Below, piece by piece: positions 46,702 to 51,733 of a stretch of DNA of 64,000 bases. The DNA is from Dasania marina DSM 21967. Lineage in GTDB: Bacteria > Pseudomonadota > Gammaproteobacteria > Pseudomonadales > Dasaniaceae. The notes beneath the pieces were generated by a model that was not told the DNA's origin, did no database searches, and saw only the letters and a list, made by a program, of their open reading frames with translations. A program made the translations under genes and the position numbers. The stretch spans positions 1 through 64,000 of the forward strand of contig NZ_KB891577.1 in assembly GCF_000373485.1 (NCBI RefSeq). Direction: 5' to 3'. How positions within the stretch are numbered: the first letter of the stretch is position 1; every line of letters starts with the position of its first letter.

Positions 46702-46761
46702 GGTTTAACGTTAGCAAAGAATGGGGGGGAATGCTTGTGGTAAATGTTGGGGTGGTGTTAT

Positions 46762-47372
46762 GGAAAAGGCCCGCGCCATTGAGGGTGTGAGCCTGCTGCT
46801 TGTTTGGGTAGATTAATGCGAGGGGGATTGAATAACAAAAGCTTTAGGCTTTTGTTACCCCTGCGGGTCGCCATGGAAGGCTGGCGTTAGCATGCCCCAC
46901 GCAGTGCTTTGTGAATCGGGGCTTAAACTCGATTCCGCCGCTGGCGGCCATTACAAAAAAGGCCCACCCTATTGAGGGTGTGAGGGGTTTTTGGGTTTGG
47001 GTATATTAATTCGAGGCGGATTGAATGATAAAAGCTTTAGGCTTTTATCACCCCTTCGGGGCGCCATGGAAAGCTGGCGTTAGCATGCCCCACGCAGTGC
47101 TTTGGGTATCAAACTTTGCTGTAAGCAAAGTTTGTGAACCGGGGCTTAAACTCAGTTCCGCCGCTGGCGGCCATTACGGAAAAGGTCCGCCCTATTAGGA
47201 ATGTGAGCTGGTTTTGAGTTTGGGTATATTAATTCGAGGCGGATTGAATGATAAAAGCTTTAGGCTTTTATCACCCCTGCGGGGCGCCATGGAAAGCTGG
47301 CGTTCAAACTTTGCTGTAAGCAAAGTTTGTGAACCGGGGCTTAAACTCAGTTCCGCCTCTTGCTACCATTAC
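46762..47372 (-). repeat. Three tandem hairpin-rich units downstream of tRNA-Met (193-223 bp each)
   Basis: Units are at about 46762-46954, 46955-47177 and 47178-47372. Each contains, in + order, a G/C terminator-like stem, then gggtatattaattcgaggcgg (or a variant). The latter contains a degenerate copy of the tRNA 3' T-arm region. An AAAAGC-TTTAG-GCTTTT hairpin, a CCCC-tnc-GGGG hairpin and a CGCCA..TGGCG hairpin follow. Then come gaaYcggggcttaaact, and a CCGCC-gct-GGCGG hairpin in the first two units. Units 2 and 3 also hold an 11-bp hairpin (CAAACTTTGCT). The tRNA CCA end and the unit landmarks are spaced 189, 223 and 193 bp. Hairpins stay paired through compensatory changes between units. 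A short plus-strand reading frame inside unit 3 follows the repeat and is not a gene. Confidence 0.9.
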
Positions 47373-47405
47373 AAAAAAGGCCCACCCTATGGGTGAGCCT
47401 TTTTT
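47373..47405 (-). terminator. Terminator of tRNA-Met
   Basis: The stem GGCTCACCC/GGGTGGGCC with a 3-nt loop is flanked by six A and six T, four bases after the encoded CCA. It is the centre of a longer 36-bp-arm inverted repeat (47352-47426) that takes in the tRNA 3' end. Confidence 0.88.
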
Positions 47406-47409
47406 GTAA

Positions 47410-47486
47410 TGGTAGCAAGAGGCGGATTTGAACCGCCGACCCCATCATTATGAGTGATGTGCTCTAACCAGCTGAGCTACCTTGCC
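47410..47486 (-). tRNA. tRNA-Met (anticodon CAT, elongator type)
   Basis: A 77-nt gene on the minus strand, from GGCAAGG to the encoded CCA. The acceptor arm pairs GGCAAG with CTTGCT (one G-T). The D arm is GCTCAGCTGGTTAGAGC, the anticodon loop is CTCATAA, and the T loop is TTCAAAT. The anticodon-arm sequence ATCACTCATAATGAT is the same as in elongator tRNA-Met of E. coli. A CAT anticodon could also belong to tRNA-Ile2, but the D/anticodon arms favour Met. Confidence 0.95.
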
Positions 47487-51405: not shown

Positions 51406-51674
51406 CTGCTGGCTAGAAGCTAGGCTTCTTTTTCCAACGTCTCACGTCAAAAGCGTGAGTTTTCTAAATATGGCTGGGGCGGCAGGGTGGATTCAAGCCT
51501 TACGGCTTTCAGGGCTAAAGCCCCATCATCTTTGATGATGTCCAAACGCTGTTGCGTTTGTCGAACCTCGTTCGACTCCTGCTGGTTAGAAGTTACACTT
51601 CTTTTCCAGCGTCTCACGCCCCCTTTTATTTCTAAACAGGGTGTGAGCTTTCTAAATATGGCTGGGGCGGCAGG
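51406..51674 (-). repeat. Hairpin-rich repeat zone downstream of tRNA-Gln with a copied tRNA 3' end
   Basis: The last 16 nt of tRNA-Gln plus 10 nt of its 3' flank (51649-51674) recur exactly at 51461-51486, 188 bp away. Both copies are followed on the minus strand by a hairpin built on CTCAC/GTGAG. Next comes a six-bp AGAAGY hairpin whose last pair changes from T-A to C-G between copies. Between the copies stand five consecutive short hairpins: AAGCC-ttac-GGCTT, GGGCT-aa-AGCCC, CATCATC-ttt-GATGATG, CAAACGC-tgtt-GCGTTTG and TCGAAC-ctc-GTTCGA. A reading frame that crosses this zone and the tRNA is not a gene. Confidence 0.9.
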
Positions 51675-51733
51675 ATTCGAACCTGCGAATGCTGAGATCA
51701 AAACCCAGTGCCTTGCCGCTTGGCGACGCCCCA
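51659..51733 (-). tRNA. tRNA-Gln (anticodon TTG)
   Basis: A 75-nt gene on the minus strand, from TGGGGCGTCGCCAAG to the encoded CCA. The acceptor stem TGGGGCG pairs with CGCCCCA, the anticodon loop is TTTTGAT, and the T arm is GCAGG-TTCGAAT-CCTGC. It is 21 bp after ispE on the same strand, as in the Pseudomonas ispE-tRNA(Gln)-prs order. It is probably processed from the lolB-ispE transcript. Confidence 0.96.

Follow-up and report, generated by a model that had tools for sequence, protein, structure and literature searches.

What kind of element directly follows a tRNA gene, is built of hairpins in tandem, and repeats part of that tRNA in each unit? Such an array, of three hairpin-rich units of 193, 223, and 195 bp, lies directly 3′ of tRNA-Met at 46.7–47.4 kb of a 64,000-nt stretch of Dasania marina DSM 21967 DNA (contig NZ_KB891577.1, positions 1 to 64,000; hereafter the window). 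We consider it rather probable that the array consists of tandem partial tRNA-Met 3′ ends in which the T-loop is split by a non-autonomous palindromic insertion module, with rtT as the Escherichia coli case. Rfam searches of the window at gathering scores report tRNAs only, and the description that follows is built on repeat families, two models of the units, and comparison across genomes; the first model (R1) describes the Dasania-type hairpins, and the second (R2) is wider, with rtT in its training set.

The host tRNA-Met (CAT) is intact and lies on the minus strand (47410–47486; ARAGORN; RF00005, 67.4 bits). Read along that strand, it is followed by a strong palindromic terminator, the acceptor and T-stem in inverted copy, GGTTCA, hairpins H1 to H4, and then AATCCGCCTC. 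The terminator-like palindrome directly 3′ of the tRNA is bidirectional (47369–47409), and the inverted tRNA copy with its terminator pairs with the tRNA 3′ end and terminator as a 41-nt palindrome (arms 47347–47387 and 47391–47431, 93% complementary). Each unit is a partial tRNA copy in which the 3′ strand of the same tRNA resumes at T-loop base A58, the hairpins being placed exactly at the split point of the T-loop; all units carry GAA(T/C)CG..(C)GRTTC on the minus strand and have their hairpins in constant order. The original prediction of three tandem units, each with a degenerate copy of the T-arm and acceptor, is borne out: start-to-start spacings are 193 and 223 in a 174-nt repeat family and 223 and 195 in an 87-nt family, and copies of the tRNA T-stem/acceptor (AATCCGCCTC or AATCCCCCTC) stand at 47245, 47022, and 46829 on the minus strand.

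The units differ in detail, and all of their parts lie on the minus strand. Unit A opens with the inverted acceptor/T-stem 3′ end, which forms the 5′ strand of its closing stem (47346–47368; inverted repeat I1), and its core (47246–47330), bordered by GGTTC (47335–47331) and AATCCGCC (from 47245), contains H1 (CAAACTTTGC..), H2 (ACGCC..GGCG), H3 (CCCCGCAGGGG), and H4 (GATAAAAGC..). It is matched by R1 at 47240–47336 (E 4.9e-22) and by R2 with 53.3 bits, unit A being in both training sets, and ends in a direct tRNA-Met copy from A58 (AATCCGCCTC, 47236–47245). Unit B opens with a relic terminator and inverted acceptor copy (47166–47210; repeat family D2 and sequence), has an additional hairpin, H5 (TACCCAAAGCACTGCGTGGGGCATGCTA), between H1 and H2 of its core (47023–47135; R1 E 1.2e-19; R2 26.1 bits), and closes with a direct copy from A58 (47013–47022). 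Unit C, farthest from the tRNA, has a similar opening (46940–46986; D2) and a core that has kept H5, H2, H3, and H4 and lost H1 (46830–46912; R1 E 1.1e-9; R2 28.0 bits, E 5.2e-6), followed by the degenerate tRNA copy AATCCCCCTC (46820–46829) and, at the end of the array, a last relic terminator stem (46755–46795; repeat family D1 and sequence). With tRNA copies of just 10 nt and units that have diverged, this may be a relic array of some age. The window contains another cassette of this family at 51483–51583 (minus strand; R2 23.4 bits, E 1e-4), which stands behind tRNA-Gln (51659–51733) and is followed by the Gln acceptor, CCA, and terminator region copied in full.

With the array as a query, the host genome yielded dispersed matches adjoining other tRNAs and 5S rRNA. 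Host cassettes stand behind the tRNAs for Met (two genes), Asp, Arg-ccg, Arg-acg, Arg-cct, Pro-ggg, Gln, Leu-caa, Ser-gga, and Phe, and a sister genome, also a Dasania (G001), has five units at the same tRNA-Met, versus three in the host (G000), as well as cassettes behind other tRNAs. Fourteen of the 27 R1 matches in the host lie on the same strand within 1 kb 3′ of a tRNA, where 0.30 are expected, as do 22 of 46 in the sister (expected 0.42); first copies are mostly 67–97 nt from the tRNA end. The host has one more match close to a tRNA, in opposite orientation to it and overlapping a same-strand match. An intrinsic terminator lies between tRNA and unit in Dasania and in many relatives. Separately, copies of hairpin H5 (TACCCAAAGCACTNCGTGGGGCAGGCT) adjoin an inverted 5S rRNA 3′ end behind 5S rRNA genes (L008 and L010; G000 C2:757.5 kb and C13:201.9 kb).

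The original prediction also proposed looking for the same hairpin order next to tRNA genes of other Cellvibrionales-like genomes. We built a core pattern from the core start alone (GGTTCGACAAA..TTTGNACGCC); the matches listed are above all in Gammaproteobacteria, with Zetaproteobacteria and a few others, and some (e.g. L223, L260, and L284) have the look of chance hits within genes. A same-strand tRNA lies upstream of 100 of the 133 core matches listed, typically 65–90 nt away, and one of the 133 comes after a tmRNA; the pattern contains GGTTCGA, a T-arm motif, and may therefore favor tRNA-linked members. The sequence after H4 follows the tRNA that it adjoins: at 83 of the loci listed its median alignment score is 42 against the adjacent tRNA and 17 against other tRNAs, the match begins exactly at A58 in 38 of 62 strong cases, and the base 5′ of GGTTCGA tracks the host tRNA in 48 of 82 (25 when shuffled). 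The tRNA copy thus matches the adjacent tRNA.

The wider model has matches in 88 of 184 sampled gammaproteobacterial genomes (E ≤ 1e-4) and in 52 of the 199 genomes of a phylum sample (E ≤ 1e-6), counts in which tRNA-borne and free cores are picked up alike and weak matches need care. In two single-contig genomes, only a minority of matches lie within 1 kb 3′ of a tRNA (4 of 17 in G161 and 2 of 18 in G164); since most are away from tRNAs, the module need not lie near a tRNA, and doing so is one of its habits. Other placements occur as well, with four copies 3′ of a tRNA on the opposite strand at G073:C1:662711-663338, and some arrays standing before a tRNA (G161 491265-491806).

Cores away from tRNAs suggest where the module begins and ends. 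A Dasania palindromic repeat, TTTTCTTTG(C/T)TTGCCC^AAAGAAAA, is found empty (TTTGCCC^AAAGAAAA) and also filled with a core at the caret. Genes in prophage-like regions of G164 have cores inside them (L349, at G164:C1:976000-981200, L350, and L351), and comparison of two paralogous segments of that genome shows two clean insertions, each of 72 bp and in frame, with the reading frames open. In the first pair, whose host gene looks like a serine recombinase, filled CTGCGCCCCGA[CAAATCGG..CGTGA]ACCCG is set against empty CTGCGCCCCGAGCCCG; in the second, filled GGTGGA[CAAATTCG..GAACA]ATCCGG is set against empty GGTGGAGTCCGG. From the filled and empty repeats and these gene pairs, the core is best seen as an inserting module with the ends A^CAAA...(T/G)(C/G)A^. 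The gene pairs belong to G164, not to the window, and the gene-borne cores differ in sequence from those of the window; judged by shared order, ends, and model scores rather than by a tree, gene-borne and tRNA-borne cores appear to be homologous. At tRNAs, no clean empty site came to light. G161 has a MITE-like set of seven dispersed, nearly identical repeats (~400 bp; L339–L345) with inverted TAGCCCGGATATTGCACCAAGG termini and a core inside. The host and its sister also contain a palindromic intergenic repeat family, TTTTCTTTGCTTGCCCAAAGAAAAC..GAACC (L119–L138), with and without the core, away from tRNAs.

Closely similar cores thus occur in unrelated flanks, and the tRNA-linked members follow one plan: tRNA, terminator, inverted T-arm/acceptor, GGTTCG[ACAAA-H1-H2-H3-H4-GARTC]AATCC, acceptor, CCA. 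Under the explanation we favor, a hairpin-rich module of ~70–115 bp would have been inserted in the T-loop of a duplicated tRNA end. The module would move as DNA, probably in a single-stranded hairpin form acted on by an enzyme whose gene lies elsewhere, and would enter palindrome apices or GA/AA steps; copies adjoining tRNAs may persist because the intact upstream tRNA stays unharmed. Recombination between the repeated tRNA ends and terminators would make arrays longer or shorter, and, as a guess, the duplicated and partly inverted tRNA end could arise by template switching at the terminator palindrome. With read-through, as annotated for E. coli tyrT, a unit could be released as rtT RNA, and we infer that such release may also occur outside E. 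coli.

The original prediction further took paired changes between the units as a sign of selection for structure. Both paired changes are present (AACAAAAGC..GCTTTTGTT versus GATAAAAGC..GCTTTTATC, and GAATCG..CGATTC versus GAACTG..CGGTTC); by themselves they are weak evidence, and they become strong evidence because homologues show double-sided change, in 13 of 22 pairs of a 12-sequence alignment and in 14 of 16 pairs when 38 sequences are aligned, the latter far above shuffled and slid controls. Among the 38 diverse sequences, 92.1% of cells are paired (67.6% when shuffled), double-change cells number 146 (47 when shuffled), and the covariation score is 0.581, compared with 0.147 for shuffled and at most 0.096 for slid alignments. 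This excess supports the prediction of selection for structure: a base-paired structure is kept up by compensatory change. Mispairs in H1, counted on the tRNA-sense strand, are 8 GT and 0 AC, a bias suggesting that the structure forms on the sense strand, whether as RNA or as single-stranded DNA. GA steps border H1 and H4 in much of alignment A2, and a covarying tandem GA motif has been described for RtT RNA by the authors of CaCoFold (PMC7657543).

Strong covariation and tRNA-specific ends could equally reflect a function at the RNA level, and the units might be kept as a functional rtT-type small RNA processed from tRNA read-through, with mobility secondary. The GT bias of H1 and the covarying GA motif are in keeping with this, the annotation of the E. 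coli units reads RtT sRNA "processed from tyrT transcript," and Rfam lists as an sRNA a look-alike, AaHKsRNA22, that scores 22.9 bits in the window. However, an intrinsic terminator parts tRNA from unit in Dasania as well as in many relatives, some E. coli strains have no rtT, the hairpins vary freely in both sequence and number, and cores also lie in frame within genes. Since the core module inserts elsewhere, including in coding genes, we do not regard a processed RNA as the sole explanation or the best supported one, and we think it somewhat unlikely that RNA function is what primarily maintains the units.

Classic REP/BIME elements, moved by a RAYT (Y1) transposase, resemble the window family as mosaic palindromic intergenic repeats, and the host genome has two Y1 matches. 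Y1 presence does not follow element presence, however (G005 has 16 elements and no Y1), no R2 match adjoins the two Y1 genes that we looked at (L308 and L309), and the window units are longer and carry tRNA-specific, tRNA-derived ends; we rejected Y1/RAYT as the mover on the lack of tracking, and consider this origin improbable. Where genomic islands have integrated at tRNA genes, partial copies of the tRNA remain (PMC9897764), and the units could be relics of tyrosine-integrase islands that used the tRNA T-loop as attachment site. We hold this to be very improbable: the hairpin core, common to different tRNAs, breaks the copied T-loop itself, and neither an integrase gene nor cargo was found between tRNA-Met and its 3′ copies in the 193- to 223-bp units, the family's units being ~180–220 bp. 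That the units are RNA sponges binding CsrA/RsmA through GGA in hairpin loops hardly merits consideration and was rejected, as GGA is enriched in the family (37 of 82 H1 loops, 10.7 when shuffled) but absent from the window loops (CTTACAG and CTAAAG) and from E. coli rtT hairpin loops. Within the 82 tRNA-linked cassettes among the loci listed, GGA in the H1 loop is enriched in many lineages and lacking from both Dasania and E. coli, and the H4 loops seem to resemble those of H1.

On the insertion-module explanation, the same cassette plan behind many different tRNA genes and a tmRNA, together with similar cores inserted in genes and other repeats, makes rtT a comparative problem, in which many genomes can be searched for boundaries, empty sites, and candidate enzymes; the explanation also covers the partial copies of tRNAs that recur outside island junctions. 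More tentatively, and with the odds in our estimation against the full statement, rtT RNA may be one case of a previously unrecognized, phylum-wide palindromic mobile module that enters DNA hairpin apices (in many cases the T-loop of a duplicated tRNA end), serves at the same time as a structured RNA, and is moved by a dedicated enzyme.

Among known systems, Rickettsia palindromic elements (RPE) are small palindromic DNA elements found in frame inside genes. The G164 cores are like them by description, and the two 72-bp pairs of that genome are clean in-frame insertions set against empty paralogues; we know of no RPE in duplicated tRNA ends. AaHKsRNA22 (RF02902), an sRNA of Aggregatibacter, shares the hairpin order of the window, where units A and B score 22.9 bits (E 0.05) and 18.5 bits, below its gathering score, and that score is reached in the tmRNA-linked L304. 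Our literature search on tRNA-linked repeats, the coverage of which leaves out most older rtT papers, returned nothing relevant. E. coli rtT has been known for decades and, to our knowledge, has no convincing role or origin.

RF00391 marks four units in tyrT/tyrV of E. coli K-12 (L328), with GGAAGGRTGAGAACCTTCGACTAAGGTTCGA, hairpins with CCCGAAGGG, and then AATCCTTCCCCCACCACCA, which is A58–A76. R1 does not find E. coli rtT (E 0.33), so R2 was needed, and its E. coli matches are by construction, since rtT is in its training set. Hairpin sequences are unlike those of the window, whose units, unlike rtT, come after an intrinsic terminator, and the wider family stands behind many tRNA types whereas rtT stands behind Tyr. 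At an E-value cut-off of 10, RF00391 matches nothing in the window, its gathering score not being reached, and we therefore call the array rtT-like rather than a member of RF00391 as modeled. That array length changes at tRNA ends, close to what the original prediction supposed, is supported by copy numbers: three and five units stand at the same Dasania tRNA-Met, and E. coli strains range from 0 to 5 rtT units, loss being as likely as original absence because strains without rtT carry a different gene at the locus. The predicted parallel with rtT stands in its anatomy. Both families lie 3′ of a tRNA in tandem (rtT units are ~180 bp) and have an inverted T-arm (GGRTGAGAACC in rtT) and GGTTCGA; the window array is on the same strand directly 3′ of its tRNA, each unit carries the tRNA 3′ end from A58 (10-nt copies in the window), and hairpin order and conserved pairing can be aligned with E. 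coli rtT, both being in alignment A2. RF00391 itself recognizes relatives, passing its gathering score in L244, L230, and L303, tRNA-Tyr members that the core pattern had found independently.
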